Below, piece by piece: positions 6,099 to 22,845 of a stretch of DNA of 37,461 nucleotides (position 1 is its first letter; every line of letters starts with the position of its first letter). This DNA comes from Myxococcales bacterium. Its GTDB lineage: Bacteria; Myxococcota_A; UBA9042; JABWCM01. The stretch is taken from positions 1 to 37,461 of the forward strand of contig JABWCM010000023.1 of assembly GCA_013360285.1 (NCBI GenBank). The letters run 5' to 3'. Both the position numbers and the translations under genes were made by a program. The notes under the pieces were generated by a model, which did not search any database, had not been told where the DNA came from, and saw nothing but the letters and a program-made list of their open reading frames with translations.

Positions 6099-6443
6099 TC
6101 GGTCGATATTTGGGGTGATGCTAGCCGTTGGGAGCTTGACGCCTACGCTATTCCGAAAAATAACGGTGGTGCAAATTGCGTAACGTCAACACGGGTTGGC
6201 GCTTTCGTGTGTTCGAGCAATAGCCGGTGTCCGGCTTTATACCGACTTCCCGTTTCTCTCGAGTATCAAAGTTCTACGACATGTCGGATTTGTGACCGCC
6301 GTCCTGCCCAAATTCATTCAAAAAGCGTGAATCAAATTGATTGTAATCCGACAAACGGGGTTGAACCTCGTAATGCGGATCGGTACATTGCGCCCCGGAG
6401 CCCGAACTGGCCCGCCGCCGTCCCACCAAACCCGGAGTCACCC
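6099..6443 (+). other. Non-coding region upstream of the giant repeat lipoprotein
   Basis: 345 bp without a credible gene. The lipoprotein frame stays open back to a GTG at 6207, but the upstream residues carry no signal peptide and no family resemblance. A possible weak sigma-70-like promoter is TTGAAC (6361-6366), a 17-bp spacer, then TACATT (6384-6389), about 55 bp before the chosen start. No terminator hairpin with a T-run was seen after gcvPA. Confidence 0.35.
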
Positions 6444-9400
6444 GTGAAAATGAGCTTATATAATCCCCACTTCTGGATCTGCTTGGTCCTGTTCTGCGCC
6501 GGTGCCTTTTTGAGTGCTGCGTGCGAAACCAATTGCGAAAAATGCGCTATTCAAAATCCGTCAAACGGTGGCCAGACAAACGTCGAAAATTCCGAATCCT
6601 TGTGTGCCGATGGTATCGATAATGACAATGACGGTGCCGTGGATTGTATCGACCTGGATTGTGAAAAAATGATTGTTTGTGGCGGCGGGGGCGGGGGCGC
6701 GGGCGAATCCAGCGTTCAGGCTTGCTCCGATTCCCTGGACAATGACAGTGACGGTTTCGTTGATTGCGACGATTTTGACTGCACAGCGAGTGGCGCGTGC
6801 GGCGGCGAATCTGGCCCAGAAAACACCGAAAACGCATGTTCGGATAAATTTGACAACGATGGTGACGGATTCGTGGACTGTAATGACTTCGATTGCGATG
6901 ATACCGAAGCATGTAAGAACAAACCCATCGAACAGACTGCTGGGGAATGTAGCGATGGTAAAGATAATGACGCAGACGGTTTCACAGACTGCGACGATTT
7001 CGGCTGTAAGTGGATGTCTGAGTGCGGAGGAAACGGAATACCGGAAAACGATGCTGCCGCCTGCTCCGACGGATTAGATAACGATGCCGACGGCCAGACC
7101 GATTGCAAAGATTTCGATTGTAAGAATTTGCCAGTCTGCACGGGAGGGGGTGAAAAGACACCGGAAAATACTGAGGAAGCTTGCTCTGACACCGTTGATA
7201 ACGATCAGGACTCGTATATCGACTGTAACGACTTTGATTGCTCCAGAACGATATATTGCCTATCAAAACCGGTCGAAACGCTGGAACCAGATTGTCAAGA
7301 CGGGAAAGACAACGACGGGGATGGCTTTTCGGATTGCGATGACTTTGGTTGTAAGTGGCTCACTGAGTGTGGTGGAAATGGGGTTCCGGAGAACAGCGCC
7401 GACGCGTGTACTGATGGCCTTGATAACGATGACGATGGGTTTACCGACTGCAAGGACTTCGATTGTAAGAACCTCCCGGTATGCACAGGCGGTACGAGTA
7501 CACCGGAAAACACCGATGCCGCATGTAGTGATGGAAAAGACAATGATCAGGATAGCTACGTTGATTGTGATGACTTCGATTGCGACGATACGTCGTCATG
7601 TCAATCAGGGCTAGTTGAAACCACGGCGCAAGACTGTAGTGACGGTGTCGACAACGATGAGGACAGCTATGTCGATTGCGACGACTTCGGATGTAAGTGG
7701 GTGCAAGCCTGTGGCGGCACAGGCGTGCCAGAAAACACTCCTCAGGCTTGTACGGATGGCAACGACAACGATGGCGACACCTTCATCGATTGCAAAGATT
7801 TTGATTGTAAGTCGTTGCCCGTGTGCAAATCCGCCGCGGAAGATACGGACGTAACCTGTTCGGACGGTGTCGACAATGACGCCGATGGATTTACCGATTG
7901 TGCGGACAACGGTTGTAAGTCCTTGCCTATATGCCAAGGTGGGAGCGCGGAAAACACGGTAGCGGCATGTTCCGATGGTCAAGACAACGATAAGGATGGA
8001 TTCATCGACTGCAACGACTTCGACTGCGACGACACAGCCGCGTGTGCCACTTCTGAAACAGAAACCTCGGTGCAGGACTGCGACGACGGTGAGGACAACG
8101 ATTCCGATGGCTACGTGGACTGCGATGATTTTGGGTGCAAGTGGACCAAGAAATGTGGCGGCACAGGTAACCCTGAGAATACGGATACTTTATGCGGCGA
8201 CGGAAAGGATAACGACGGGGATTCGTTCGTCGATTGCAAAGACTTCGATTGTAAGTCGCTGCCGACGTGTCAGGGAGGCGTCGAAAATACAGACGCGAGT
8301 TGTTCTGACGGTGCAGATAACGACTTGGATGGATTTACGGATTGTGCCGACAACGGCTGCAAGAATCTGCCGGTGTGTAAGTCTGGTACTCCGGAAAACA
8401 CCGACGCTGCCTGCGACGATGGTCAGGATAACGATAAAGACGGCTATATTGATTGCGATGACTTCGATTGCGGAAAAACCACGCCGTGCACATCCAGTAG
8501 CGGAAGCGAAACCAGCGCCGGTGAATGTTCCGACGGCGTAGACAACGACGGCGACAGCTACGTCGATTGTGACGACTTCGGATGTAAGTGGACCGTTGCG
8601 TGTGGCGGAACCGGGGTTTCGGAAAGTGGGGACACTGCGTGCAGCGATGGGCAGGATAACGATGGCGATTCCTTTGTCGATTGTGCTGACTTCGACTGCA
8701 AGTCGGCAACCGTGTGTGCCGCGGGGTCGGAAAATAGTGAAGTTACGTGTGGTGATGGGAAAGATAACGATCAAGATGGGTTTACCGACTGCGCAGATAA
8801 CGGATGTAAGACACTCCCCGTTTGTCAAAACGGTGAACCGGAAAATACCGATCAGAATTGCCAGGACGGTGTGGATAACGATAAAGACGGATTTTTGGAC
8901 TGTGACGACTTTGATTGCGACGAAACAACTCCCTGTGGTTCCGCTTCTGTAGCGGAAAACACGCAGTCTGCTTGTACCGACGGCAGCGATAATGACGGTG
9001 ACAGTTACATCGATTGTATGGACTTCGATTGTAAATGGATTCAGCAATGCGGAGGCACCGGAGTTGCCGAAAACACTGATAATGCATGTGCGGATGGTCA
9101 AGATAACGATGGCGATTCGTTTGCGGATTGTAAGGATTTTGACTGTAAACCGCTCCCTGTATGCCAAGGCGGAACTTCCGAGGATAGCGAAGATAAGTGC
9201 TCAGACGGATTAGATAACGATCAGGACGGATTTGTCGACTGCGACGATAACAATTGCAAGACTACCGTGGTCTGCTCTGGCACGCCGGTTCCAACGGAGA
9301 CTTCTGCGGAGCACTGCCAGGATGGCAAAGACAACGACAATGACTCGTTTATCGATTGCAACGACTTCGGATGTAAGTGGGTTGTTGCATGCGGTGGAAC

Positions 9401-10418
9401 CGGAGTGCAGGAAAACAACGATGCGGCTTGCTCCGACGGCCAAGACAATGACGGAGACTCGTTTGTCGACTGTAAGGACTTCGATTGTAAACCACTCAAT
9501 GTTTGCCAGGGTGGTACGCCGGAAAATACCGACGCGGCATGTTCTGATGGTAAGGACAACGATGGCGATGGCTGGGTCGATTGTATGGATTTTGATTGTG
9601 ACGAAACCCCTTCCTGCGGCGGTAACGGAGAAGTCGAAAACTCAGATTCGTTGTGTTCCGACGGTGCAGATAATGACGCTGACGGATTTACCGATTGCGA
9701 AGATCTCGACTGCTCCCAGACAGATTTGTGCGCGGTTGGGTTTACTGAAGGGTCCGAAGCCGAATGTACTGATAACAAGGATAACGACCAGGACTCGTTC
9801 ATCGACTGCGACGATTTTGGATGTGGGTGGCTGGTACAATGTGGCGGCACTGGTGTGAAAGAAAACAATGACCTGAGCTGTGCTGACGGTCAGGACAACG
9901 ATGGAGACGGTTTTACCGACTGCAAAGATTTCGATTGTGGGGACACGATACCGTGTACGACCGCCGATGAGCCGGAAAATACGGACAGCGCCTGTGACGA
10001 TGGTAAAGATAACGACGGAGACGGAGTGGTCGATTGTGATGACGATGACTGTCTTGACACCGCGCCGTGCACCGGTGCGGTTGGTCAGGAGAACACGGAA
10101 GCTGCGTGTTCTGACGGGTTTGACAATGATGGCGATGGGTTTGTCGACTGCAACGATTTTAACTGCAATGCAACGAATGTGTGCAAGGCGAACAACGAAG
10201 CGGAATCAACCCAACAACAGTGCGTCGATGGGATCGACAACGACAATGATGGCTTTTTGGATTGTAAGGATTTTGGGTGCAAGTGGTTGGTGGCGTGTGG
10301 CGGAACCGGTATCGCGGAAAACACCGACGCGTTATGTTCGGACGGAGTTTCGAACGATGGCGACAAATTCATCGATTGTGACGATTTTGACTGTTCAGGC
10401 ACAAATGTGTGCCCGTAG
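6444..10418 (+). CDS. Giant secreted lipoprotein with 34 four-cysteine DNDxDG repeats
   Basis: About 1324 residues. Start at GTG 6444 is supported by GGAG at 6434-6437. It yields a signal peptide (WICLVLFCAGAFLSAAC) with a lipobox-like SAAC. The rest is 34 tandem units of about 38 residues, consensus C-x-DG-x-DND-x-DG-x-x-DC-x-DFDC-x5-C, usually joined by a linker like PENTDAA. Each unit has four cysteines and a DxDxDGxxD loop that resembles EF-hand/dockerin-type calcium loops. Units with FGCKW recur at positions 4, 7, 10, 14, 18, 25, 29 and 33, and a close variant at 22 has FDCKW. DNGCK/DNNCK units occur at 12, 16, 20 and 24. Known: similar repeats occur in MopE-like metal-binding surface proteins. 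Inference: an elongated disulfide- and calcium-stabilised surface or matrix protein. No enzymatic domain is seen. Confidence 0.85.
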   Translation: MKMSLYNPHFWICLVLFCAGAFLSAACETNCEKCAIQNPSNGGQTNVENSESLCADGIDNDNDGAVDCIDLDCEKMIVCGGGGGGAGESSVQACSDSLDNDSDGFVDCDDFDCTASGACGGESGPENTENACSDKFDNDGDGFVDCNDFDCDDTEACKNKPIEQTAGECSDGKDNDADGFTDCDDFGCKWMSECGGNGIPENDAAACSDGLDNDADGQTDCKDFDCKNLPVCTGGGEKTPENTEEACSDTVDNDQDSYIDCNDFDCSRTIYCLSKPVETLEPDCQDGKDNDGDGFSDCDDFGCKWLTECGGNGVPENSADACTDGLDNDDDGFTDCKDFDCKNLPVCTGGTSTPENTDAACSDGKDNDQDSYVDCDDFDCDDTSSCQSGLVETTAQDCSDGVDNDEDSYVDCDDFGCKWVQACGGTGVPENTPQACTDGNDNDGDTFIDCKDFDCKSLPVCKSAAEDTDVTCSDGVDNDADGFTDCADNGCKSLPICQGGSAENTVAACSDGQDNDKDGFIDCNDFDCDDTAACATSETETSVQDCDDGEDNDSDGYVDCDDFGCKWTKKCGGTGNPENTDTLCGDGKDNDGDSFVDCKDFDCKSLPTCQGGVENTDASCSDGADNDLDGFTDCADNGCKNLPVCKSGTPENTDAACDDGQDNDKDGYIDCDDFDCGKTTPCTSSSGSETSAGECSDGVDNDGDSYVDCDDFGCKWTVACGGTGVSESGDTACSDGQDNDGDSFVDCADFDCKSATVCAAGSENSEVTCGDGKDNDQDGFTDCADNGCKTLPVCQNGEPENTDQNCQDGVDNDKDGFLDCDDFDCDETTPCGSASVAENTQSACTDGSDNDGDSYIDCMDFDCKWIQQCGGTGVAENTDNACADGQDNDGDSFADCKDFDCKPLPVCQGGTSEDSEDKCSDGLDNDQDGFVDCDDNNCKTTVVCSGTPVPTETSAEHCQDGKDNDNDSFIDCNDFGCKWVVACGGTGVQENNDAACSDGQDNDGDSFVDCKDFDCKPLNVCQGGTPENTDAACSDGKDNDGDGWVDCMDFDCDETPSCGGNGEVENSDSLCSDGADNDADGFTDCEDLDCSQTDLCAVGFTEGSEAECTDNKDNDQDSFIDCDDFGCGWLVQCGGTGVKENNDLSCADGQDNDGDGFTDCKDFDCGDTIPCTTADEPENTDSACDDGKDNDGDGVVDCDDDDCLDTAPCTGAVGQENTEAACSDGFDNDGDGFVDCNDFNCNATNVCKANNEAESTQQQCVDGIDNDNDGFLDCKDFGCKWLVACGGTGIAENTDALCSDGVSNDGDKFIDCDDFDCSGTNVCP
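6600..10415 (+). repeat. 34-unit tandem coding repeat (~114 bp per unit) with 3/4-unit super-repeat
   Basis: The repeats occupy nearly the whole mature protein. Units are conserved at protein level but diverged at synonymous positions, which points to old duplication under selection. From unit 10 to unit 25 the order [FGCKW or FDCKW]-[FDCK]-[DNGCK or DNNCK]-[FDCDxT, FDCGKT or similar] repeats four times, giving a super-repeat of about 450 bp. Before unit 10 the period is three units. Confidence 0.85.
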
Positions 10419-10488
10419 CGGACAATAGCCCGCCAATTACCTCCTTCTCTTTCTTCAAATATCTTGTACGCGCACCCCACAATATTAA

Positions 10489-10660
10489 CCCGGATTTTTC
10501 ACGAGCTTGCGGGCGAGAGCGTCGAGGCGCCCGCAAATTCGGGGTGGTGGGTCGTTTTTGTCCGGAAGCATGCCAGGCATGTTGAGGACAAAGCGGTCTA
10601 CCATACCCGAAAATGCTTGCGGATCGGCGCTCGTAGTCTCAAGCTTGTGAGAAATACGGG
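10489..10660 (+). repeat. Family B element (~172 bp) with terminal inverted repeats
   Basis: The 21-bp left end (10489-10509; begins CCCGGATTTTTCACGAG) matches the reverse complement of the right end (10640-10660; GAGAAATACGGG) at 18 of 21 positions. CTAG follows on the right at 10661-10664. The interior has short inverted repeats (GCATGCCAGGCATG near 10568) and no convincing gene. Related ends occur at 1933-1953 and at 14062-14082. Confidence 0.65.
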
Positions 10661-10927
10661 CTAGGTGTGTGGTGTTTTTTAGGGGAATTTTTGGCCAGCG
10701 GAATTTGAGCCGGATCGTCCGGAAAAATCCTGAGAGTTTGTGAAAAAATATGGGGACGGACTTGGACGCGGGGATTTTGGCCCCGATGCCCGGAAGAAAA
10801 CTGAGTCATACAGCTATTTTTTCACCGACTCTAAGTCATATCCGGGTAGTGGCGCAGGGATTTTTGCGGGCGAGGCGGCCAAAGGCGGCCCGGGTGTGGA
10901 ATTCATCTAGAAACACCGCACACCTAG
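10661..10927 (+). repeat. Family C element, long copy (~267 bp)
   Basis: The ends are CTAGGTGTGTGGTGTTTTTT (10661-10680) and an inverted copy ending AACACCGCACACCTAG (10912-10927). The body GGCCAGCGGAATTTGAGCC, GGATCGTCCGGAAAAATCCTG is near-identical to the shorter copy at 17549-17710, in the same orientation. This copy carries about 98 extra bases (family D). Confidence 0.7.
10734..10831 (+). repeat. Family D element nested inside family C (~98 bp)
   Basis: The extra segment starts GAGTTTGTGAAAAAATA and ends TATTTTTTCACCGACTC, which are inverted repeats of each other with two mismatches. The short family C copy at 17549 reads straight through this point (CCTGAGTCATAT), so it shows the empty site. 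The interior has a perfect stem GGGGATTTTGGCCCC-like region near 10770-10784. No coding capacity. Confidence 0.6.
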
Positions 10928-11043
10928 CGGCGGTGTGGCAATGTCCGCACACCCGGAATTCGTAAACATGTCGGCGGCTTTGCTGCGGATTCTGATAAGA
11001 AATTCACGCTAAGTTACTGGTTTGGAGGGTTTGAACGGCTAAG

Positions 11044-12000
11044 TTATCGATTCAGCGGATTGGATTCGAATCGTGACTGAAGTTTGTCCAGTGCATTTTT
11101 TGTGGTGACCGTGGCGTTTACGCGGGCCGCGGTGATCCACGACAAAGTCGACGGATGATTGACCAGCAATATACTCTTCAGTGCTGCTTTCTGGCTCGGA
11201 CCCGTAAGTCGAGTGTACGCGTTTACCAAATGTTTGGCCGAAAGTGCCCGCACTTCCTGTTCCTCAGCGGGTACATCTCCGGGTGCCGGTGTTTCCCATG
11301 CCCAAACATTTCCCACGTCGCCCAGTGCTTCAATGATCGCTAAGTTAAGGGTCTCGTTTGTTGGCTCGGTAGAATCCAATAACGGTCCTAGTGTTTGGAC
11401 AATGGGCAATCGCCGACAGGAGCCCATCCCAAAAATGACTGCTAGCTGCTTTGAGCCAGGAGTCGTTGCCATTTGAGTCAGCGTGTTCACGGCGTGGTCT
11501 GTGCTTAGTTTGCCGAGCGCCTCGGCCGCTGCACGGTTAACATAAAACTCCTGTTCTGGCGACATCAGGATCGCTTTGTAAACACTTTCACCACGTGGAT
11601 CTCGGGTCGCGCCTGCGGCTTCTATCAGCCCTGCACGCCAGGCTATCCACGCTGATTCCGTCCATTGGCGGCGGCCGATGTCCGAGAACACCAACGCATC
11701 CAAAACTGGCAAGATCACCTCCGGGCCAATGTTCTTCAACGACATTGCGACCGGTGCAAAACGGCCTCTTTTGGTGGCGTCCATCGTTGCAACTTTTGAG
11801 CGCACATCTGCAACGCGGTCGAACGCAGATGGTAGAGTTTTTCGGGCTGCAGAGATGTCTTGCGCCAACAAAGTACGTACATCGATTGGTAAGGATTCCG
11901 GAGACAGCACGGCGCCGGTTTGTGCAACGACATCGTTTATCGATGTGACGGTGCAGAGTCCGAGTACGAGGGCAAAAGTCATAAATTGAAGTCGTTTCAT
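11044..12000 (-). CDS. Secreted HEAT-repeat-like protein of unknown function
   Basis: About 318 residues. Start at ATG 12000 gives a classical signal peptide (MKRLQFMTFALVLGLCTV, Ala cleavage region near VVAQ), so the product is exported. The mature part is alpha-helical and resembles HEAT/PBS-type repeats: GPEVILPVLDALVFSDIG, YVNRAAAEALGKLSTDHAV, LNLAIIEALGDVGN. No catalytic motif is visible. The start overlaps the stop of the upstream arginine deiminase gene in an ATGA arrangement (11997-12000), so the two are almost certainly translationally coupled. Inference: a partner, scaffold or substrate-recognition protein for the deiminase. It could equally be an independent periplasmic protein. 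Confidence 0.8.
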   Translation of the reverse strand: MKRLQFMTFALVLGLCTVTSINDVVAQTGAVLSPESLPIDVRTLLAQDISAARKTLPSAFDRVADVRSKVATMDATKRGRFAPVAMSLKNIGPEVILPVLDALVFSDIGRRQWTESAWIAWRAGLIEAAGATRDPRGESVYKAILMSPEQEFYVNRAAAEALGKLSTDHAVNTLTQMATTPGSKQLAVIFGMGSCRRLPIVQTLGPLLDSTEPTNETLNLAIIEALGDVGNVWAWETPAPGDVPAEEQEVRALSAKHLVNAYTRLTGPSQKAALKSILLVNHPSTLSWITAARVNATVTTKNALDKLQSRFESNPLNR

Positions 12001-13946
12001 CGTCCTGTCTCCCACCATTTTACGGTCGGTATTTCCCGCGTTGTGTTGGTTCCACAATGAACTTCGCCCAGCAAGGCGTGATAGAGGTTCCAGTTTTCCA
12101 CGTAGTGGACCGTCATACCAATTTTGGCCAACTCCTCTGTCATCTGTTCTTCAAAAATGTCCACACCGTCAATATTTGGGCCGTGGGGTTTCGGGGATGC
12201 GTAGTGGGTTCCATCAATAACCAATCCGTTTACCGTTCCCGGTTGATATGCGACGGAATAACCCTGAATTGTGTAATGCAGGAACGGGATTTTTAGGATT
12301 TCTTCGTCCGTAATCCCGGTTTCTTCTTTGAGAATTTCGATCTGATCGTCGACTTCGACGATGGCTTCCGCAGAGTCGGCCATCACGTCTTTGTCAGCAA
12401 GTACGCCATTGATTGTGATTTCCGCTGGATCATTTTGGTCCCAATATTTGCCGACAAACATTGGCGTGTCGCCGTGCCCGCTCGCGACCGCGTCTTCAAG
12501 CATCTGTTTAGCCAATGCGGCATCGTTCGCCGCAATTACCCAGCCCCTGGGAGAGTCTGCCCGAAGAAAAGTAATGGTTTCATCTACATGACCTACCAAC
12601 AACCAGGACGTATCCACGTAAATTGGCGGTTGAATCAACTGAGACTCCAACATTTTCGAAAATTTGGGATCAGGGAAAAAATTCGGCACGCTGCCACGAA
12701 ATACTCGACCCAATGGATACTCGACACCGTCCTTTGTGTAGGGTGGGACCGTTTCGGTGTTTCCAAAAGAGTTAAGTGAGTCCATGTATCCGTTATGTTG
12801 CAAGTCATAATGCTGAACACCGGCACTGTCTTTGCCCCGAAGCATCGAAAAAACCACCTGACCAGCGGGGCGAAGCGGGTTCGTTTTGTTCGACGCATTG
12901 TAGACGTTTGCTGAGCGGTAATTCACGCGCATAACGTGCTGAATGCCACCAGGGCCGGGCATTGACGCGTAGCCGGTTTCAAAGAAGTCCTGTGTCCACT
13001 GGTCGCCCACAAACATAGGCACCACATCGTCCGACTTTGACGCTGCGTCCATGGCAGTTTGAAGGTCCGTTCGGAAGTCCACCGAATCCTTGTCGTTAAA
13101 ACTCGTCACGTACATTTTTTCCGCCGGAAGAAGATGATGATAAAGCATGACCGGGGAAACACGAACTACCGCAGAATCACTGCTGATTTCTTGTGCGTCG
13201 GTATTCAGCAGTGCGAATTTAACACTAATATAGCCGTTCCAAACATCGATATCGCGAACGATGTCCTTTGCTTCGAGTCGTAATTCAATTCCCGATTTTA
13301 GTTCTTCGGTAGTGAACGTTTGGTTGGCAAAATCAAATAATTCCAACCCATTGGCGGACGGCTTGAAAAAACGAACCATCGAGCTACTTGGTTCATCTAC
13401 GGAAATACGTCCAGTGTATCCGTCAGGTAACGATGGCAGGGCAACGATGTGTACTGGAGCCATATCCTTGACGTCGTCTTCACCATTGATGACCTCATCC
13501 GCGGCGTCATTGCAGGCTGCCAGCGCAACATCTGTGCCGAATTTTTTGCAGGTTTCCTGATCGTCGTCGATGTTTGCCAGCACAATTGCGCCGTTGGTTT
13601 CTCCCCAGTCTTCCTCGCCGTTGTCTTCGGTGGGATCGTCAAGGTCGATCTGTCCATTTCGGTTGTTGTCGGTCAACAAATTGGCCTCCAAGTTCCCGGA
13701 CGGCTCGGTGTCCGCTGAGTCGGCACCGTTGATTGATCCGTCTCCGGATTGGATATCTCCACTTTCGGTCGTGTCATTTGATGTGCTTACATCGTTTTCC
13801 GTGATATCCCCTGCTGTATTTCCGCCGGTACCGCCGTTATTTTTGGTGTCGCTACACCCTGTCAACGCTAGACTAGTCACGGCAAGGCCCCATGCTGCTA
13901 ATTTTATCGCCTCAATGAGTCGATATGTGAAAGTTCGTCGCCGCAT
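11997..13946 (-). CDS. Lipoprotein protein-arginine deiminase (vertebrate PAD type)
   Basis: A 649-residue enzyme predicted to convert peptidyl-arginine to citrulline outside the cytoplasm. The N terminus is a lipoprotein signal (SLALTGC, acylated Cys31) followed by a Gly/Ser/Asp linker. A PAD middle-domain-like region (about 86-265) has the calcium-loop-like LTDNNRNGQIDLDD, then ETNGAIVLANIDDD and VINGEDDVKDM. The catalytic domain has all expected residues: Asp320 in DQWTQDFFETGY, His453 and Asp455 in LVGHVDETITF, Cys631 in GEVHCGTNTTREIP. SFGNTETVPP and EYPLGRVFRG also match PAD enzymes. I see no PAD N-terminal domain. It is distinct from the Porphyromonas PPAD, which belongs to the agmatine-deiminase-like branch. 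ATG 13946 has AGGAG upstream. It is coupled to the HEAT-like gene. Confidence 0.9.
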   Translation of the reverse strand: MRRRTFTYRLIEAIKLAAWGLAVTSLALTGCSDTKNNGGTGGNTAGDITENDVSTSNDTTESGDIQSGDGSINGADSADTEPSGNLEANLLTDNNRNGQIDLDDPTEDNGEEDWGETNGAIVLANIDDDQETCKKFGTDVALAACNDAADEVINGEDDVKDMAPVHIVALPSLPDGYTGRISVDEPSSSMVRFFKPSANGLELFDFANQTFTTEELKSGIELRLEAKDIVRDIDVWNGYISVKFALLNTDAQEISSDSAVVRVSPVMLYHHLLPAEKMYVTSFNDKDSVDFRTDLQTAMDAASKSDDVVPMFVGDQWTQDFFETGYASMPGPGGIQHVMRVNYRSANVYNASNKTNPLRPAGQVVFSMLRGKDSAGVQHYDLQHNGYMDSLNSFGNTETVPPYTKDGVEYPLGRVFRGSVPNFFPDPKFSKMLESQLIQPPIYVDTSWLLVGHVDETITFLRADSPRGWVIAANDAALAKQMLEDAVASGHGDTPMFVGKYWDQNDPAEITINGVLADKDVMADSAEAIVEVDDQIEILKEETGITDEEILKIPFLHYTIQGYSVAYQPGTVNGLVIDGTHYASPKPHGPNIDGVDIFEEQMTEELAKIGMTVHYVENWNLYHALLGEVHCGTNTTREIPTVKWWETGR

Positions 13947-14382
13947 CCTCGCTCCTTCAAACGTCTATCCAATGATTTACCCCCAGATCATGATTGTACA
14001 TGAGCGTGAAAGGCATCGCCACATACAATCATTCCTCAAAAAGGGCACGAATTAGACTTTACCTGGATTTTTCACGAGGTTGGGACTGCGGGCGCCGATC
14101 CGCCGAACCGTCAAGCGGAACAAACGGTTTTCGCCGTGTACGGGCGCGGCCATGTTGGCCGGTGAAAATCAACCGTTCCATCTGAGACTCATCAGTTTAT
14201 CATTTCTATCAACCAGAATATCGAAATTTTCCATGCTTTACTTGCATTTGTCGCAACTATTTGCTTTTTTTCCTTCATAAATATGTATCCTTTCTGGTCG
14301 TACGTCAGTATCCGTGTTTTACTAACAAGAAGCCAGACTCCGCGCGGCAACAGTCGATGTGGCCAGAATTCGTGTGCATCTT
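13947..14382. other. PAD upstream region and repeat remnants
   Basis: Non-coding. The part next to the deiminase (13947-14045) holds an operator-like inverted repeat. From 14062 a family B-like end begins (CCTGGATTTTTCACGAGG; 19 of 21 positions match the B terminus). It is followed by an imperfect palindrome around a CGGCC-ATGTT-GGCCG hairpin (14147-14161). The stretch 14190-14382 is AT-rich, and I see nothing definite in it. Confidence 0.5.
13991..14031. promoter_or_regulatory. Operator-like inverted repeat upstream of PAD gene
   Basis: TGATTGTA (13991-13998) and its exact complement TACAATCA (14024-14031) form an inverted repeat. Allowing two mismatches it extends to 12 bases per arm, with a 17-bp spacer. 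It sits 45-85 bp upstream of the PAD start. On the minus strand one arm contains TACAAT, a reasonable -10 element. It may be a regulator-binding site or a leader hairpin; no regulator is visible nearby. Confidence 0.4.
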
Positions 14383-14563
14383 TAAGAGGGTGTTTGGGAA
14401 AAAATTGCCGGTGAGCGAAACAGTGGCCGTAACGAGTCGGCCGGGCCGACCGAGGCCCACCGGAGGCGTACCCAACGGTACGCTCAGGATGGGCCGACCG
14501 AGGCACGGCCGACGGAGTAGGCCAATGTTTCGAGTAACGTAATTTTTTACCCAAACACCCTCT
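14383..14563. repeat. Family A palindromic element, copy 2 (181 bp)
   Basis: The ends AGAGGGTGTTTGGG (14383-14396) and CCCAAACACCCTCT (14550-14563) are perfect inverted repeats. The arms continue inward with ATTGCCGGTGAGCGAAACAG and CCGTAACGAG. The reverse complement of the centre (GTACGCCTCCGGTGGGCC) aligns with copy 1 at 1729-1908, so the two copies lie in opposite orientations. No gene is inside. Confidence 0.75.
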
Positions 14564-14665
14564 AAGGCCTCGTTGCGAATCCTGGTGAGAACTCTCGGCC
14601 AACGGTTCAACACGCGCGTCGGTTGAAGAATTGTTTGCCTCAATTTTCGGTGGGAAGTGTGGATC
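14564..14665. other. Short spacer downstream of Hsp70-DUF3731 gene
   Basis: About 100 bp between the family A element and the stop of the minus-strand Hsp70-like gene. No clear T-tailed hairpin was seen. The strong palindrome of the adjacent element could form a transcript-end structure. Confidence 0.3.
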
Positions 14666-17503
14666 TCAAGTTGAATCTGAAGGTTCTCGCAGTACTAGGC
14701 CGTGCGGAATGCTGTCGCCCAGCAGATGTTGTTGCTCTTTTCGTTCCAACGGTACGACGTCTTTGATCATCGTTGTCAGTCGTTCCGAATCTGGTAATTT
14801 AGAAAGCTCGGCAAATAATTTTGAAAGAAGATCTGGTTTTAGATCCCGGGAGCGGTCCCCCGTTTTTCTGGCAATTTGCACAATGTCAAGCGCACAGTTG
14901 GCGGCTTCTTTCCAGCGGGTGATCAGCAGATCTTCCAACCACCTTCCCGCCACATGCGCCGGTAGTGCGGTATTGATTCCGGCATAAAGCGGAACCCGTG
15001 CTCCTATACGCCCCAACGCCCAATAACCAAACAACGTAAGGTCTTTGGACGATAACTGTTTTAGAATGAAATCACCCAGACGAGTTCTAGTTGTCGGCTC
15101 AATGCGTTCGAAACTGGCAGCAGCCATCCAGAGTTCCTGAATTTCGGCCTTGTCTGGCGCCGGGCGGCCCAGTTTGAACGTATCGATTTTTTTTGAGGTA
15201 ATCAGCGGATTGATATCACCAATGAGCTGGATCTGCTGCCCGGTTGTTAATCCTGCGGCGGTTCGGCGCCACATGACCCACCATTCGCGCCACACCTGAG
15301 AATCTCGTCGATGGTTTGGGCCTTCGGCGTACACCTTGTTCCAGAGTTCTCGAACACGGAGTTCGTCACCAGGCAGGCCTGTCCCGGGACGGAGACAAAA
15401 TCCAGCGAGATTGTACCAGCGTGATTCGTGCAGCGCCGATTGGCCACGTTTCGACGCACAATCACGGATCTTCGGCCACAAAGAACGCAACGCACCGAGT
15501 GGCCACTCGTCGCGGCGGAGTTCCATCGCCGTTTCCAATTCCCGCATGATCGATTTGGGCTCGATGATTTTCTCAACATAGCATTGCGAAATTACCCGTT
15601 GCGCTTGTTCAAGACGGGACTCGTCCAATGTTTCTGTTTCGATTGCCCCTGACGGCTGGGTGTCCGACGCCCAACCGGAACGCAGATCAAATTCCAGTTT
15701 CCAACGATGGGGTGAAATCGTTGACGCACAACCGACTGCCAATGTGCCAATCTCGGTCACTTTTGCTACCAGTTCAACCGGCAAAACGGCCTGGGAGCCC
15801 TTTTTTCCGTACTGTAGAACGGTGCGAATTGGCGGCAGGGCATTCAAGGTATCCGCGGTGAGCGACACCAGTTGCCCGGGTTCGTCACCAATTCGTGTGC
15901 TGGAAGACCACAAGGGAAAACTGACCGGCCGATTGGTAACGATCTGGAAATCCTGGTTGGACACATGAACCTCGCGTCCTTCTTCCAACCCGTGCGGGAT
16001 CAGACAAACCACGGTATTTGAGACTGTTTTGGCAGATTCGTCGTAGTCCGGGGTTCCTACTCCAACGTAATAGGCTCGGGCTGAGCCTCCCGCAATACGA
16101 ATTCCAAAACCACGTCGAACAGCGCCGTAATAGGCGGCGCCCAAAGCCACAGCAAGATCGGGTTTCTGATTAGACAGCACTTTTGGTTGGTAAGTTTCCG
16201 TGCCAAACCAGTTCTTTAACGAATCGACTATCCGTTGTTGAACGCGGGTTGGCTCGGTGGCTCCGCCATTGAAAAGTACCGCATCTGGTCGAACAAGATC
16301 GCCATCACGAGATTGGCTGCGAACGTTGGGCGCCTGTGATCGCAAAAAAGACAAAATATGTCTAGGAATTGCCGGATCGGTTTCATAGGGCAACCCCAGT
16401 TCAAATATACCTCCGCGTTTTCTTCCGATGATTTTTTCGGAACGTTCGCATAACGGAAAAAAGCCGTCCAGCAAAAGTTGTTCCGCTTCTCGGTGCAAGA
16501 GGGGGTGGGACACGGTACCGCCTATCACCCGGCTGCCGCTTCCTGGTATAGCAACTTTGGCCATTTCTGGCGCATTGTCAGAAAGCAACGTCTCCTTGGC
16601 CTCCCGACAACGGTATGTCAGTTGCGACCACTGGCGGGCATCAAGGGCCTTTCCAGGCGGAATCGCGTGTTCGATGTGCCTCGCGAGTGCGATATCCATA
16701 TTGTCACCTCCCAAAAGAAGGTGGGCGCCGACGGCGATACGTTCAAACGACGGTGCTTTTCCGTTTTGCATGCTCACGTCGATTAGGCTCAGGTCCGTTG
16801 TTCCTCCGCCGATGTCGCATACCAACGCGACTCCTCCGCCGGGAAACGCTTGTTCCCATCGCTGGTCGTGGCTTTCGATCCAATGGTAAAACGCCGCTTG
16901 AGGTTCTTCGACCAAAGTCAGTTTACGCAGACCGGCACGTTCTGCCGCGACACATACCAACTCACGCGCTACTTCGTCGAAGCTCGCGGGTACCGTGAGT
17001 ACGACTTCCTGATCTTCAAACGTGGCTTGGGAATTTTCCCGACAGAATGTGTAATTCCAGGCTTCCTTGATGTGGGAAAGGACAAGTACGGCAGCATCGA
17101 CCGGAGACATTTTGGGTACGTCGTCGGCCCCGGACCAGGGCAACATGGGTGCAGTTCGGTCGACGAGGTCATTACATAGCCAGCTTTTTGACGAAGATAC
17201 CAATCGACCCGGAACCAGGGCGCCCCAGTCACGGGCCATTTCGCCGACCACGAAGCTACGACTTTTGTCCCATGGTACGGCGGTTGAACCGGGAGGAAGG
17301 TCATGGCCACCCGGGAGGTAAACAAACGATGGCAACAACGGACGCGCCTCGACAAAAGACGGTCGCACCAACTGAGGAACTGGAAAGACTTTTACGTCGG
17401 GAGAACCAGTCCACTCGTGGCGCATGTCGATGTACGCAACGGCGCTGTTGGTAGTACCCAAGTCAATGCCGATCACAAAAGGCGAACCAATAGTCGACAT
17501 CAT
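14666..17503 (-). CDS. Hsp70-family protein with long C-terminal (DUF3731-type) extension
   Basis: 945 residues, larger than DnaK (about 640). The ATPase domain is well preserved: phosphate-1 motif IGIDLGTTNSAVAYID near the N terminus, phosphate-2 motif VCDIGGGTTDLSLIDV, and adenosine motif VLFNGGATEPTRVQQ. The usual DnaK substrate-lid sequence is replaced by a long helical C-terminal region (about 650-945; MELRRDEWPLGALRSLWPKI, WYNLAGFCLRPGTGLPG, FGYWALGRIGARVPLY), as in Hsp70-like proteins annotated with DUF3731. The role of this family is unknown. The upstream paralogue and the DUF2760 gene form the usual set. ATG 17503 has GAGG upstream; an ATG three bases later is an alternative. A MITE-like element separates it from the paralogue. 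Confidence 0.88.
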   Translation of the reverse strand: MMSTIGSPFVIGIDLGTTNSAVAYIDMRHEWTGSPDVKVFPVPQLVRPSFVEARPLLPSFVYLPGGHDLPPGSTAVPWDKSRSFVVGEMARDWGALVPGRLVSSSKSWLCNDLVDRTAPMLPWSGADDVPKMSPVDAAVLVLSHIKEAWNYTFCRENSQATFEDQEVVLTVPASFDEVARELVCVAAERAGLRKLTLVEEPQAAFYHWIESHDQRWEQAFPGGGVALVCDIGGGTTDLSLIDVSMQNGKAPSFERIAVGAHLLLGGDNMDIALARHIEHAIPPGKALDARQWSQLTYRCREAKETLLSDNAPEMAKVAIPGSGSRVIGGTVSHPLLHREAEQLLLDGFFPLCERSEKIIGRKRGGIFELGLPYETDPAIPRHILSFLRSQAPNVRSQSRDGDLVRPDAVLFNGGATEPTRVQQRIVDSLKNWFGTETYQPKVLSNQKPDLAVALGAAYYGAVRRGFGIRIAGGSARAYYVGVGTPDYDESAKTVSNTVVCLIPHGLEEGREVHVSNQDFQIVTNRPVSFPLWSSSTRIGDEPGQLVSLTADTLNALPPIRTVLQYGKKGSQAVLPVELVAKVTEIGTLAVGCASTISPHRWKLEFDLRSGWASDTQPSGAIETETLDESRLEQAQRVISQCYVEKIIEPKSIMRELETAMELRRDEWPLGALRSLWPKIRDCASKRGQSALHESRWYNLAGFCLRPGTGLPGDELRVRELWNKVYAEGPNHRRDSQVWREWWVMWRRTAAGLTTGQQIQLIGDINPLITSKKIDTFKLGRPAPDKAEIQELWMAAASFERIEPTTRTRLGDFILKQLSSKDLTLFGYWALGRIGARVPLYAGINTALPAHVAGRWLEDLLITRWKEAANCALDIVQIARKTGDRSRDLKPDLLSKLFAELSKLPDSERLTTMIKDVVPLERKEQQHLLGDSIPHGLVLREPSDST

Positions 17504-17800
17504 TTATTTTCCTCGGTCGTTTCGCAATAGAACGGATACAGGGTCCAGATGTGTGGTGTTTTTTAGCGGAATGTTGGGCCAGCGGAATTTGAGCCGGATC
17601 GTCCGGAAAAATCCTGAGTCATATCGGGAATATGGCGCAGGATTTTTTACGGGCGAGACGGCCAAAGGCCGCCAGGACAGAAATTTCATCAAAAAACACC
17701 AGCCACCTAGACGGCAGTTACCGGGTTGCTCACCTTGCGTGAAGGTAAAAATGCGGATTTTTTTTGTTTTGGAGCCAAATGGCTCGCAATCTTATAGACG
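17504..17800 (-). other. Interrupted spacer between the two Hsp70-like genes
   Basis: A 297-bp gap inside what should be an operon. More than half of it is the short family C element (17549-17710). The rest has no gene. The downstream Hsp70-DUF3731 gene may now depend on read-through or on a promoter within this gap. Confidence 0.5.
17549..17710 (+). repeat. Family C element, short copy (~162 bp)
   Basis: The ends are GATGTGTGGTGTTTTTTAG and an inverted copy ending AAAACACCAGCCACCTAG. The body shares GGCCAGCGGAATTTGAGCC, GGATCGTCCGGAAAAATCCTGA and GACGGCCAAAGGC with the copy at 10661-10927, but lacks the nested family D segment. It lies between two genes of one likely operon. Confidence 0.7.
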
Positions 17801-19636
17801 TTATCCTGCATCTTCCCGGATGTTAAACTCCAGCTTCCATTTTCGTTCACCATCACGGGCGACACACCAAATTTCCAGTGTTCCGATTTCGGTAACATGT
17901 GTGCGGATGTGTACCGGAACCACCATGCCTGTATCGTCGCCCGAACCCGACAAGGTCGTTTCGAGCGGTGCCAGATCCCGGATTTCGTCGTCGTTGTAAA
18001 CGTCGATCATCGCGCCGATAGGGTCGTCACGACGGATGGTTGAGCTGAGCAGTCTGAACGTTGCCGGTTCACCGACGACCAACCCAAACTCGCGACTTGC
18101 GACATCTTGAGATGTTCCTTCCTCGGTACCAAAAGGAGCTACGCACAACGCTTTGATTGGCGGAGCCATACCCGGGACAGTCGGTAGGGAAGATTCGATG
18201 CCCACATAATAACTTCTGGCTGTTCCACCACGAATTCTGAGCCCGTGCCCCAAACGAACCAGTCCGTAATATGCAGCACCCCGTGCGACCGCTAGATCCA
18301 GACTTTGGTGGCGCAGAATGCGGATGGGCTCTGCGCCATCGGCGGTGAGCCATTGGTTCACGATGCTGCTAAGTTTGTCTCGAAGGAGAGTAGCTTCAAA
18401 GATACCCCCGTTAAATAACAAAGCTGACGGGCGAATGAACGATCCCGAATTTTGCCCGGCAGAATGGGCGTTTCGCGTCAGAAACTCCGCGAGGTGCCGA
18501 GTAACTCCGGCGTCTGCTGCGAAAGGTAAGCCGATTTCTCGTAGCCCGGTCGTTCGTCGTTGTTGCGGTCGGTCGGTTATCGAACACTCTGGAAAGAATC
18601 CACGCAACAAGACATCGATGTCTGCTCGGACGAGATCGGTTCGAATCGTTCCGCCGATTAATCGCGAACCCCGACCCAGCACCGAAACGGGAAATGATTG
18701 CAAACCGGGATCCGAAAGCAACGCCTCTTTTGCAACTCTGCATGCGTGCCAAAGTTCGCGGGACTGCCAAGCGTCAAGTTGGGTTCCTTGCTGGGCGAGC
18801 CGCTGTTGGGCAAGGTGCGCCAATGCAACGTCCATATTGTCGCCGCCCAACAAAATATGGTCGCCAACTGCCAGTCGCTCCAAGACCAGATCACCCTGAT
18901 GGTCCTTGACCTGGATCACGCTGAAGTCGGTGGTACCGCCACCGACGTCGCAGACCAGAATCACGTCGTTTGCATGAACTTCCTTACGCCATGCGTCCCC
19001 CGTAGAGGCCAACCAGGCGTATAATGCCGCCTGGGGTTCTTCGAGGAGTGTAACATGAGGCAAACCGGCCAAGCGCGTTGCTTCAATCGTCAAATCCCGG
19101 GCAATCGGGTCAAATGACGCTGGAACCGTAACGAGGATCTGCTGACGCGCAAACTGAAGTGACGGATCCTGCTGCGCAATAACGTGATCCCATGCGTCGC
19201 GGATGTGAACGAGATAACTCGTCGCGGCTTCCACTGGCGAGACGCGGCGCATCTCGGTGTCACCAAGCGGTAAAAAGGCTGCCCGCCGGTCTACTTCGCC
19301 GTGGGACATCCAGCTTTTTGCCGATGACACTAACCGTCTCGGAACTTTGGCGCCGTGGTCACGGGCGAGGGTCCCTACAGCGAACGACAAGTCTTTTTTC
19401 CACGGAAGCGACAATGAGCCGGGAGGCAACTCACCTTCCGCGGCAAGGTACAAAAACGATGGCAGGGTTTTTTTTGCCTCTACGTGGCCCAATCGCGTCA
19501 ACTGAGGAATATCGAATCCATGAATATCAGGAAGTAGGTTGCTATTAGGCTCAGTTTTCGTCAAATCTACATAGGCAACTGCGCAGTTTGTAGTGCCCAG
19601 GTCAATTCCGATCACAAAACGCGACATTTCGGACAT
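17801..19636 (-). CDS. Hsp70-family (DnaK-like) protein
   Basis: About 611 residues. Start at ATG 19636 places IGIDLGTTNCAVAYVDL near the N terminus and has GAGG upstream, inside the end of the preceding gene. The longer frame from 19723 would overlap the DUF2760 gene. Phosphate-2 motif VCDVGGGTTDFSVIQV and adenosine-binding LLFNGGIFEATLLRD are present. It aligns along its whole length with the first two thirds of the neighbouring 945-residue protein and ends at the equivalent of WKLEFDLR (here WKLEFNIRE). It therefore lacks the DUF3731-type region by family design rather than truncation. It is probably an ATP-dependent chaperone-like protein, but clients are unknown. There are two bases between the DUF2760 stop and this start. 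Confidence 0.88.
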   Translation of the reverse strand: MSEMSRFVIGIDLGTTNCAVAYVDLTKTEPNSNLLPDIHGFDIPQLTRLGHVEAKKTLPSFLYLAAEGELPPGSLSLPWKKDLSFAVGTLARDHGAKVPRRLVSSAKSWMSHGEVDRRAAFLPLGDTEMRRVSPVEAATSYLVHIRDAWDHVIAQQDPSLQFARQQILVTVPASFDPIARDLTIEATRLAGLPHVTLLEEPQAALYAWLASTGDAWRKEVHANDVILVCDVGGGTTDFSVIQVKDHQGDLVLERLAVGDHILLGGDNMDVALAHLAQQRLAQQGTQLDAWQSRELWHACRVAKEALLSDPGLQSFPVSVLGRGSRLIGGTIRTDLVRADIDVLLRGFFPECSITDRPQQRRTTGLREIGLPFAADAGVTRHLAEFLTRNAHSAGQNSGSFIRPSALLFNGGIFEATLLRDKLSSIVNQWLTADGAEPIRILRHQSLDLAVARGAAYYGLVRLGHGLRIRGGTARSYYVGIESSLPTVPGMAPPIKALCVAPFGTEEGTSQDVASREFGLVVGEPATFRLLSSTIRRDDPIGAMIDVYNDDEIRDLAPLETTLSGSGDDTGMVVPVHIRTHVTEIGTLEIWCVARDGERKWKLEFNIREDAG

Positions 19637-19638
19637 AA

Positions 19639-20247
19639 TTAGACCTCTACTTCGGCCGGTGCAATGACCGCCAAATCTTGGCCTGGTGGCGTCGACGGTA
19701 GCTTTAATTTGACCACGCGCCATCCGTGATGTCGCAATATGCCCGAAAAGGGCGGATTTCCCACGACATTGCCCACTACGCGAATACGATGAGGATCAAA
19801 TCCAGACGGAACCTGGTAGGGACCACCTTCTTCGCCTTGTAAGACCGCCTCGACCGTTGCGTACTCAACGATGGCTTTGCGGCACCCCGAGTGAATTGTC
19901 CGAACTGCACCGCCCACTTGTTCATCGGTGTAGCTGGAAATGTCCTCTTGGAGAAAATCAATAAAACGCCCTTCTTGCTGTAAGATAGCGAGTAATTTAA
20001 GCGCGGACGAATCGGTTCCCTCTTTTTTTTCCGGCGGTTTTTCCGGTGGCGCTACAGTCAGTGCCGGGTCCGGCGTACGCGGTTTCACCGCCGCGTCGGA
20101 GGTTGCTTGGTGACTGATTTGAAGGGATTTAGATTCAGGTTCGGCGAATTGTGGCGTTCTACCTGCCTCTAACTGTTGAATTTGTGAGTAACCGGGACCA
20201 AAAAGTATTCGAAAAAACCATTTGAACGCCAGTATGATTCGTCCCAT
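19639..20247 (-). CDS. DUF2760 domain-containing protein
   Basis: 202 residues. An N-terminal hydrophobic/aromatic helix (ILAFKWFFRILFG) may anchor it to the membrane. A Pro/Lys-rich linker (about 55-80) leads to a conserved C-terminal domain (about 80-200) with SALKLLAILQQEGRFIDFLQ, EDISSYTDEQVGGAVR and GCRKAIVEY. This ends with ILRHHGWRVVKLKLP, typical of DUF2760. Function unknown. In many proteobacteria this family sits directly upstream of the two Hsp70-like genes found here, so a shared process is likely. ATG 20247 has GGAGG four to five bases upstream. Confidence 0.88.
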   Translation of the reverse strand: MGRIILAFKWFFRILFGPGYSQIQQLEAGRTPQFAEPESKSLQISHQATSDAAVKPRTPDPALTVAPPEKPPEKKEGTDSSALKLLAILQQEGRFIDFLQEDISSYTDEQVGGAVRTIHSGCRKAIVEYATVEAVLQGEEGGPYQVPSGFDPHRIRVVGNVVGNPPFSGILRHHGWRVVKLKLPSTPPGQDLAVIAPAEVEV

Positions 20248-20711
20248 AGGACCTCCGACCCTGTTTTCGATGCGGTGCTTGTCGTGTATAGCGGTTGTGC
20301 TCAGTTCTTCGCTTTAGAGCGCCGACCGCGCTTGCCGTCGTATCGTTCGGTCACGTTTCGAGTAGGTGTTTTGGGCGTGACGCCCACTCGGGTTCGTGGT
20401 GCATAGTGCAACGGACCCACTCCGGTCAAGTACCGCAATCCACAACTATGCACCTTGGTGTAAGCGGGGTCGTGTCCGAGTTGCTTTTGAATTTACCGAG
20501 CGGGCAATTTTTGCCGTCGGTGTGCCAAGTCCAAAAAAACCGCGATAAAGTCGGGGTGGGTTTACCGATGTGTGTTGATTTTAGACCTGTCTTGACGATA
20601 CGCTCTGCGCACCCTGCTGGGGTGGCTTTTGCATAGCCCACACCCGAGTTCGGAGTCATGTCGGTCATGCGATTGAACAGATACCAACCCCGCCGCGAAG
20701 AAGAGGATTTT
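20248..20711. other. Divergent intergenic region
   Basis: 464 bp between the minus-strand DUF2760 operon and the plus-strand IgGFc-binding-like gene, so promoters for both should lie here. A hairpin GGGCG-TGA-CGCCC (20373-20385) with a flanking CGAGT/ACTCG pair is visible. An open frame at 20295-20636 has no family resemblance, and I do not call it a gene. No confident promoter hexamers. Confidence 0.35.
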
Positions 20712-22745
20712 GTGAACAGGCAGCGGTTTTTTGTTACGGTGTGCGCCGTTCTCATTTGGACGGGTGCAGCATGTAGTGAGGACAAGAAAGAGGAGGACAA
20801 TTCCGGCTTCGGTGCGTCGGGTAATTCCGATACCGGAATTTTGGGTGAGTCTGACGGTTCGGGCGGGTTCGGGGGTACTGGTGAATCGGATACTGCCGGT
20901 GCCCAGAACGGAGATTCATCGTCGGTCGCTCAAGATGCTGACTCGGCGGAAACCTTCGGTTGCATCCCCGGTTCCAACGGTGGCTGTTTTGACTCTGCGT
21001 CGCGGAAAATTTGCAATGTTGACGGGACCGACTTTGTTGCCGAGGCGTGCCCTGATGGTACCGCATGTACGGCTGGTCAGTGTCTGAACCCCACTTGTAC
21101 TCCCGGGGAGCCCAAAAACGAGTGTGCGTCCACAACGGCCTATCTGGTGTGCAACGCCGCAGGGACGTTATACGAATCCGTTTCCTGTCCAAATGGCCTT
21201 AAATGTAATCAAGGTAAGTGCGAAGACCTGTTCTGTGTGCCTGACACCTCGGTTTGCTTCAGCCCAACATCAATCAAGAAATGCCTTTCCGATGGTTCTG
21301 CATACGGTCAACCGGAACTGTGTCCACAGGGGCAGCAGTGCAACGGAGAGTTGGGTCAGTGCGTGGATGCCTGTGACGCCAACACAAAGGCAGGCATTTA
21401 TGTTGGCTGTAACTATTTCGCTTTGGATTTGGATAATGTCGAAGGTGGAGCGACCGCGGAGGTTGCGGTAGTGGTGTCAGTGCCTGCCACGGAAGACAAA
21501 GACGCCACGATCACCGTGCGTGACATGTCAAATGGACTGGAATTGACTGCGGAGCAAATGGCTGTTGACTCACTTAAGATAGCTCCCGGCGGGTTAAAGG
21601 TTTTTCTGATGCCGGCCGATGGTACCCAAGGCGCAAATCCGCTGGATGGTTCAATAAAAACCAAAGCAAGTTACGAAATCAAGAGTACTGCGCCGGTTAC
21701 CGTTCACCAGTTTAACCCACTTAACGGCGAAGGTGTATTCACCAACGACGCATCGTTGTTGTTGCCGTCAAACCTGGGAGGAACAGAGTATTTGGTTATG
21801 GGCTGGCCCCATCGAATTTTTCAGGACGACGACCAAACCATTCCTTTCCGAGGGTTTGTAACTATCGTGGCGACCGAGGTTGGGACTACTCAGGTCGTGG
21901 TGACCGCTCGCGGTCAGGTTGCCGGTGGAAAAGGGGTTCCCAGTATCAAGAAAAATCAAACCCATATGTTTACGCTGGAACAAGGGGAAGTGCTTAACTT
22001 GGAGACCGACGGCGACGAGGGTGAAGATTTAACTGGTTCGTGGATCAAAACCGACAAAAAAGTGAACGTGTTGGCCGGGAGTGAGTGCGCCAATATTCCC
22101 GTCGGGGTGGATTATTGCGATCACATTGAGCAACAGCTCATTCCCGTCAATACGTGGGGCAGTTCGTATGTCGCTGACGCATTTATTGCGCGTAACGAAC
22201 ATCAATTTGACATTTGGCGTGTAATGGGGGGGCGCGACAACACAACCGTGACTACCAACCCACCGATCAAAGGATTCGAAGTGTTCACCCTGCATAAAGG
22301 GACCTTTGTAGAATTTATCGCCAAAGGAACGTTTGCAATCAACGCTGATGGTCCCATTTTGGTAGGGCACTACATGGTAGGGTCAAATTATCCCGGATAT
22401 CAGCCGAAATGTGAGTCAGGAAGTGGTATCGGCGACCCAGCGTTTACTCTCGCAGTACCGGTCGAACAACAGTTGTTGTCCTATGTGGTTTTGACGCCAC
22501 CAGGATATGCAGAAAACTATATTAATGTCGTGTCCGAAACGGGTGTCGACGTTTCTATTGATGACGTTCCGATCACGAATTTCAGTCCCATCGGAACCAC
22601 GGGGTTTCAAATTGCTCATGTGCCGGTGCAGACGGGAGTGCACTCTATTGTCGGTGCTCAGAAGTTCGGGGTGACGGCTTACGGATATGATTGTGATGTA
22701 AGTTACGCTTATCCGGGTGGGCTGAAATTGACGACGGTAAAATGA
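20712..22745 (+). CDS. Secreted lipoprotein with IgGFc-binding-like domain
   Basis: About 677 residues. GTG 20712 has AGAGGA five bases upstream and gives a lipoprotein signal (VLIWTGAAC; acylated Cys). A Gly/Ser/Asp-rich linker leads to cysteine-rich repeats of about 45 residues (FGCIPGSNGGCFDSASRKIC, CTPGEPKNECASTTAYLVC, FCVPDTSVCFSPTSIKKC). A large beta-rich domain (about 230-660) then resembles the IgGFc_binding family: GIYVGCNYFALDLDNVEGG, VTVHQFNPLNGEGVFTNDAS, LLLPSNLGGTEYLVMGWPH, VLAGSECANIPVG. Known: that family is widespread in secreted proteins of myxobacteria-like genomes, where its ligand is not established. Inference: an adhesin-like outer-membrane surface protein. An 80-100 bp gap separates it from the next lipoprotein gene. 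Confidence 0.82.
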   Translation: MNRQRFFVTVCAVLIWTGAACSEDKKEEDNSGFGASGNSDTGILGESDGSGGFGGTGESDTAGAQNGDSSSVAQDADSAETFGCIPGSNGGCFDSASRKICNVDGTDFVAEACPDGTACTAGQCLNPTCTPGEPKNECASTTAYLVCNAAGTLYESVSCPNGLKCNQGKCEDLFCVPDTSVCFSPTSIKKCLSDGSAYGQPELCPQGQQCNGELGQCVDACDANTKAGIYVGCNYFALDLDNVEGGATAEVAVVVSVPATEDKDATITVRDMSNGLELTAEQMAVDSLKIAPGGLKVFLMPADGTQGANPLDGSIKTKASYEIKSTAPVTVHQFNPLNGEGVFTNDASLLLPSNLGGTEYLVMGWPHRIFQDDDQTIPFRGFVTIVATEVGTTQVVVTARGQVAGGKGVPSIKKNQTHMFTLEQGEVLNLETDGDEGEDLTGSWIKTDKKVNVLAGSECANIPVGVDYCDHIEQQLIPVNTWGSSYVADAFIARNEHQFDIWRVMGGRDNTTVTTNPPIKGFEVFTLHKGTFVEFIAKGTFAINADGPILVGHYMVGSNYPGYQPKCESGSGIGDPAFTLAVPVEQQLLSYVVLTPPGYAENYINVVSETGVDVSIDDVPITNFSPIGTTGFQIAHVPVQTGVHSIVGAQKFGVTAYGYDCDVSYAYPGGLKLTTVK

Positions 22746-22845
22746 GTGGCAGTATCCTCAAAATGAGCGTTGGAATAAGTTGTTGCCCGACTCTAAATAA
22801 TTTGGTTTTGCAAGCATTCTCGATTTGTTAAGTTACGGAGGCACA

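Follow-up and report, generated by a model that had tools for sequence, protein, structure and literature searches.

A predicted two-domain protein-arginine deiminase lipoprotein encoded together with an exported HEAT-repeat protein in Myxococcota

The citrullination of proteins has medical importance in animals, and animal protein-arginine deiminases (PADs) are thought to derive from bacteria; to our knowledge, the role of PADs in bacteria is almost unknown. The locus described here, in a window of 37,461 nucleotides (the whole stretch of DNA analyzed) from a Myxococcales bacterium, contains the sole PAD gene of a 7.15 Mb assembly, overlapping a gene for an exported HEAT-repeat protein. It raises the question of what type of PAD this is and what the neighboring protein does for it. 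The features of the locus are as follows:

13952..13957, (-) strand: Shine-Dalgarno-like AAGGAG ahead of the PAD ATG (sequence)
13946..11997, (-) strand: PAD gene, two-domain protein-arginine deiminase lipoprotein, 649 aa (PF03068, phmmer, AF2 model)
13854..13865, (-) strand: lipobox LTGC, with lipidated Cys31 and Ser at +2 (sequence)
13635-13670, (-) strand: calcium-loop segment DNNRNGQIDLDD, PAD residues 93-104 (sequence)
13356..13682, (-) strand: PAD_M-like middle domain (PF08527, sub-threshold; retained calcium ligands)
12009..13187, (-) strand: PAD_C catalytic domain (PF03068 positions 2-395 of 395)
12987..12989, (-) strand: catalytic Asp320, equivalent to PAD2 D351 (alignment to PAD2; 90/90 HEAT-associated PADs)
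12582..12590, (-) strand: catalytic His453 and Asp455, equivalent to PAD2 H471 and D473 (alignment to PAD2; 90/90)
12054..12056, (-) strand: catalytic Cys631, equivalent to PAD2 C647 (alignment to PAD2; 90/90)
11997..12000, (-) strand: ATGA stop/start overlap, translational coupling (sequence; NTGA in 71/91 loci)
12000..11044, (-) strand: HEAT-repeat partner gene, 318 aa (PF13646; AF2 model; alphaRep folds)
11923..12000, (-) strand: type I Sec signal peptide at the N terminus of the HEAT product, some 26 aa long, with cleavage close to the junction of VVA and Q (sequence)
11767..11769, (-) strand: near-invariant Arg78 (mature Arg52) in the KRGRF loop of the HEAT protein (79/85 homologues)

Judged by its domains, modeled fold, and catalytic residues, the window enzyme is a genuine protein-arginine deiminase with predicted activity. 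It matches PF03068 with 310 bits (E 3e-92; curated Pfam cut-off 25), and its top PDB sequence match is human PAD2 (phmmer, E 3e-46, residues 86-646), with both PAD_M and PAD_C covered. The AlphaFold (AF2) model, for which 65 homologues served as input, has a pLDDT of 96, and its comparison with human PAD4 structures confirmed the PAD fold (Foldseek, TM 0.82 by query length, E 1e-51). The first-pass annotation had read Asp320, His453/Asp455, and Cys631 from the motifs QDFFETGY, GHVDE, and EVHCGTN, and these residues lie exactly where it placed them; the tetrad Asp, His, Asp, Cys is present in the window PAD and in all 90 HEAT-associated PADs. Likewise, the calcium-loop-like segment that it had recognized within a PAD middle-domain pattern is found at residues 93-104, in a region scoring 22.2 bits against PAD_M (PF08527), slightly below the Pfam cut-off of 24.8. 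The N terminus (MRRRTFTYRLIEAIKLAAWGLAVTSLALTGC) is a lipoprotein signal and the region upstream of residue 86 is linker only; in agreement with the earlier description of a lipobox and linker with no PAD N-terminal domain, PAD_N gave no match at E<0.01 among 65 type-A PAD homologues. A lipobox is present in 116 of 149 PAD ORFs from related loci. Aspartate after the lipobox cysteine acts as an inner-membrane retention signal in E. coli; it is rare in the PAD homologues, most of which have Gly or Ser there. In three of the 65 type-A PADs in the alignment there is also a Somatomedin_B domain, which is best known as a module of extracellular proteins in animals.

The PAD relatives of the window assembly are all from Myxococcota. 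Within this phylum, PF03068 matches were found in 94 of 379 genomes, spread over many families and mostly present in one or two copies per genome. In a tree of 137 PADs, the window PAD and others linked to the same HEAT family (type A) are separate from a second group (type B), which retains calcium site 2 and the substrate-contact residue R373 and groups with human PAD2. In a 65-row mixture-model tree, a branch with SH-aLRT 99 had type B and human PAD2 together on one side. The same tree put three Streptomycetaceae PADs within type A, beside one of the Myxococcota loci; the alternative with type A as a single clade was not formally rejected (AU p 0.056). The wider placement of the clades is provisional, the trees being built without cyanobacterial and fungal PADs. 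One draft assembly contains both PAD types, possibly owing to contamination; no species with both types was reported in PMC8826395. A phage or viral origin was rejected, no PAD relatives being present in 50,697 phage records or in viral contigs, and PAD relatives on plasmids were limited to four Streptomycetaceae records.

To place the enzyme among known PADs, we aligned it and the 90 HEAT-associated (type-A) PADs to human PAD2, assigning residues to calcium sites and substrate contact according to PMC8826395 and general knowledge of PAD structures. The PAD_M calcium ligands (PAD2 N154, D156, E/D158, D166, D177, D180, and E253) are retained in 88-89 of the 90 homologues. Calcium site 1 (Q350, E354, and E412) is retained in the window PAD, with some E-to-Q and E-to-D exchanges among the homologues (Q350 is Gln in 82/90; E412 is Glu or Asp in 90/90), and the enzyme is probably calcium dependent. 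Calcium site 2, on the other hand, is lost (E352 to F, D370 to R), R373 is replaced by Asn, and the 300-302 linker motif is the His-rich YHH; together with the position in the tree beside Streptomyces PADs, these changes overturn the initial designation of the enzyme as a vertebrate-type PAD. Loss of site 2 is typical of the "two-domain" PADs of actinobacteria and fungi, for which a different calcium regulation has been proposed (PMC8826395). The window PAD shares with this class the actinobacterial grouping, the site 2 loss, and the His-rich linker, in a comparison from which fungal sequences are absent. The linker motif alone does not discriminate between PAD types, because HH is also common in type B. 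The position of the calcium switch, D389, is Asp in the window PAD and in 74 of 90 members of the type-A clade, unlike in the actinobacterial set of PMC8826395.

The second gene encodes a protein starting with MKRLQFMTFALVLGLCTVTSINDVVA followed by QTG, a Sec signal, and a hydrophobic N terminus is found in 88 of 91 HEAT homologues. An alternative start at TTG 12057 was rejected in favor of ATG 12000 on account of the signal peptide and of the overlap recurring in 71 of 91 loci. The protein passes the curated cut-off of HEAT_2 (PF13646; 33.6 bits versus 27.7), 79 of 85 type-A homologues match this family at E<0.01, and its AF2 model (pLDDT 96) is an all-helical solenoid whose top PDB folds are alphaRep HEAT proteins, a fold used for protein binding. 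The near-invariant Arg52 (mature numbering) sits in an inter-helix loop; further conserved residues beyond the usual repeat motif are C169-R170-R171, W207-A-W209, and R225. The PAD stop codon (11999-11997) and the HEAT ATG (12000-11998) overlap in different frames, bearing out the translational coupling to an exported helical-repeat protein that had been read from the sequence.

The question then is whether this arrangement extends beyond the window. The annotation had staked its reading on a HEAT-like neighbor recurring in the same order, and this proved to be the rule: the same HEAT family adjoins PAD in 91 nonredundant Myxococcota type-A loci, 71 of which have the exact 4-bp NTGA overlap (with start codons picked automatically), so that overlap and gene order are beyond chance. 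In most of the other 16 loci counted, the HEAT gene starts a short way downstream of PAD. In four loci, which form one clade in the PAD tree, it lies upstream, indicating that the order changed and the adjacency was kept. A profile search of the 379 genomes with the type-A HEAT family yielded 66 strong matches, 64 of them adjacent to PAD and the remaining two partial and on other contigs of PAD genomes; PAD-negative genomes among the 379 gave no strong match. Paralogous pairs stay paired, with four in a single genome. The HEAT protein diverges faster than PAD (mean identity 31% versus 40%), and the pairwise distances of the two correlate (r 0.81, shared ancestry not controlled).

The remaining surroundings are less regular. 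Candidates for a third conserved operon member were unconvincing, the neighbor clusters being mostly antisense artefacts, with the exception of the gene downstream of type-B PADs, and promoter and terminator scans of window positions 10420-14700 returned nothing usable. Convergent to the HEAT gene, positions 6207-10418 (+) encode a protein of about 1,400 aa with many tandem Cys-rich CSDGxDNDxDGxxDCxDFDC repeats containing calcium-loop-like Asp patterns, for which Pfam gives only a weak EF-hand match. Upstream of PAD, positions 14666-20247 (-) encode in a row a DUF2760 protein and a pair of Hsp70-like proteins, of which one has DUF3731 ("DnaK-related"). Positions 20658-24648 (+) encode a protein with an IgGFc-binding domain (PF17517, E 1e-72) and, after it, a protein with MopE/thrombospondin-3 repeats.

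A related arrangement is found outside type A. In 37 of 41 non-type-A PAD loci, an exported protein of one family is encoded directly downstream; all 36 aligned members match HEAT_2, and all 36 contain an invariant Arg in the motif TRAGxxRF. The two partner families align by hhalign with 96% probability (E 1e-9, 228 columns); since HEAT_2 repeats are common, their homology could be at the level of the repeat only. The profile alignment of the two loop arginines is ambiguous, and their equivalence is uncertain. The four partnerless loci comprise L139 and L143, PAD-fold lipoproteins which are the only PADs with lost catalytic residues; L145, a fragment; and L142, which is long and atypical, retains D-H-D-C without having a partner, and so counts against obligate pairing. 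Strong type-B HEAT matches also occur in ten PAD-free genomes of one genus and, as extra copies away from PAD, in three other genomes, indicating that this family can have a PAD-independent role; the PAD-free proteins, which retain an arginine in that loop, may be relics after PAD loss or have a separate function. Thus, the type-A HEAT family is tied exclusively to PAD in the 379 genomes, and the type-B family is not strictly tied.

What, then, does the partner do? Established at these loci are the gene order, the overlap, the export signals, the catalytic and calcium residues, the predicted folds, and the exclusive co-occurrence of the type-A HEAT family with PAD. On balance, PAD is probably a peptidyl-arginine deiminase of the outer membrane that depends on calcium, and HEAT its dedicated binding or regulatory subunit, with binding, activity, and substrate deduced from these features. 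The two genes would make up a bicistron serving citrullination in the cell envelope. PAD would be exported and lipid-anchored outside the inner membrane, most likely in the outer membrane. There, calcium supplied by the medium would fill the PAD_M sites and calcium site 1, and the loaded enzyme would convert peptidyl-arginine to citrulline, an activity to be expected by analogy with a Streptomyces PAD. The HEAT protein, translated from the shared transcript in amounts coupled to those of PAD and exported through Sec, would be a dedicated subunit that binds PAD and regulates it or sets its specificity, by holding, inhibiting, or aiming the enzyme either at the surface or in the periplasm. The near-invariant arginine loop may provide a contact by inserting into the PAD active site as a pseudo-substrate. 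The simplest reading of that residue is an arginine offered to an arginine-modifying enzyme, as pseudo-substrate or substrate, and we treat it as a lead. Co-inheritance of PAD and HEAT alone is no proof of binding. A more sweeping proposal is doubtful: that bacterial PADs are two-component enzymes whose active site is occupied by the HEAT arginine loop, either as a pseudo-substrate or as a substrate, in a pairing older than the split between vertebrate-like and actinobacterial-like PADs and later dispensed with in the actinobacterial and animal lineages.

The HEAT protein could instead be the main substrate, switched between two states by citrullination of its near-invariant arginine. A near-invariant loop arginine in both partner families, the 1:1 coupling with exclusive co-occurrence of the type-A family, and the lack of partners beside the catalytically dead PADs all agree with this; however, the arginine may be conserved for structure, the hhalign alignment of the two arginines is ambiguous, and PAD-free orphan type-B proteins keep an arginine in that loop, so that we regard a principal-substrate role as unlikely. 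Rather less credit is due to the HEAT gene as an unrelated passenger held beside PAD by shared regulation. HEAT proteins are indeed frequent in these Myxococcota genomes, and Streptomyces PADs, one of which acts on a peptide in vivo (PMC9266682), do without such a neighbor, but exclusive co-occurrence in 66 of 66 cases across 379 genomes, adjacency kept through a swap of gene order, and a related HEAT protein alongside a second PAD clade speak against a passenger. Least probable of all is a toxin-immunity pair like SitA/SitI, in which the lipoprotein PAD would be passed to neighbors by outer-membrane exchange and HEAT would protect the producer. In its favor, the lipoprotein gene of these Myxococcota runs into a small gene that overlaps it, SitA toxins are lipoproteins of the outer membrane whose immunity gene lies downstream (PMC5562445), and the HEAT protein evolves faster than PAD (31% versus 40% mean identity). 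Against it, the domains of SitA toxins have the cytoplasm as their site of action (PMC5562445), whereas the HEAT protein carries a Sec signal; PAD shows no polymorphism, and its only extra part is a linker, with no delivery domain; one conserved PAD domain takes the place of a variable C-terminal toxin domain throughout; PAD occurs across many families of the phylum at mostly one or two copies per genome; and the orphan type-A HEAT genes expected of spare immunity genes are missing.

Returning to the favored reading of HEAT as a dedicated subunit, the near-constant co-encoding of the two proteins across the phylum suggests that bacterial citrullination operates as a two-protein system. About 128 of the 132 assessable PADs of the phylum (91 of type A and 37 of 41 others) have a conserved, exported, and often co-translated partner, which provides a concrete handle on bacterial PAD function; the single most useful fact is the exclusivity of the type-A family. 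The partner can be co-expressed with PAD, so that one can measure how it alters calcium dependence, activity, and the choice of substrate; should it inhibit or aim the enzyme, it could also offer a natural template for controlling PADs.

Neither the enzyme family nor the two-domain form of bacterial PAD is new; the conserved pair of lipoprotein PAD and exported HEAT protein, in two versions, seems to be undescribed. As the annotation had supposed, we found no description of it in open-licence PMC papers. Among known systems, actinobacterial PADs resemble the window PAD as exported PF03068 two-domain enzymes. The Streptomyces citrulassin PAD is given as WP_064069847.1 (Harris 2020, as cited in PMC9266682 and PMC12971885), and pad expression in Streptomyces turns des-citrulassin, a lasso peptide, into citrulassin in vivo (PMC9266682). 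Our comparison rests on Streptomyces and Embleya homologues, WP_064069847.1 itself lying outside the alignment; these group inside the HEAT-associated clade and likewise are without calcium site 2 and R373. They differ from the window PAD in their secreted N terminus with no lipobox, and none has a HEAT neighbor where annotation exists. Nested in the clade as they are, they indicate that the PAD fold does not need HEAT, and partnerless PADs in the Gram-positive Streptomycetaceae would fit a HEAT function specific to the Gram-negative envelope, such as restraining PAD while it is in the periplasm or displaying it on the cell surface.

The three-domain PADs of animals and late cyanobacteria (clade Ai, PMC8826395) have in common with the window PAD the PAD_M and PAD_C folds, the catalytic tetrad, calcium site 1, and several PAD_M calcium ligands, but they possess PAD_N, calcium site 2, and R373, all of which the window PAD lacks, and no HEAT partner has been described for them. 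Porphyromonas gingivalis PPAD offers a parallel as a secreted bacterial enzyme of protein citrullination and belongs to a separate pentein lineage outside the PAD clade (PMC8826395). The closest parallel in organization is provided by the type-B PADs of Myxococcota, which are also lipoproteins with an exported HEAT gene directly downstream, whereas they differ from the window PAD in keeping site 2 and R373, in grouping with human PAD2, and in having a distantly related partner with PAD-free orphans.
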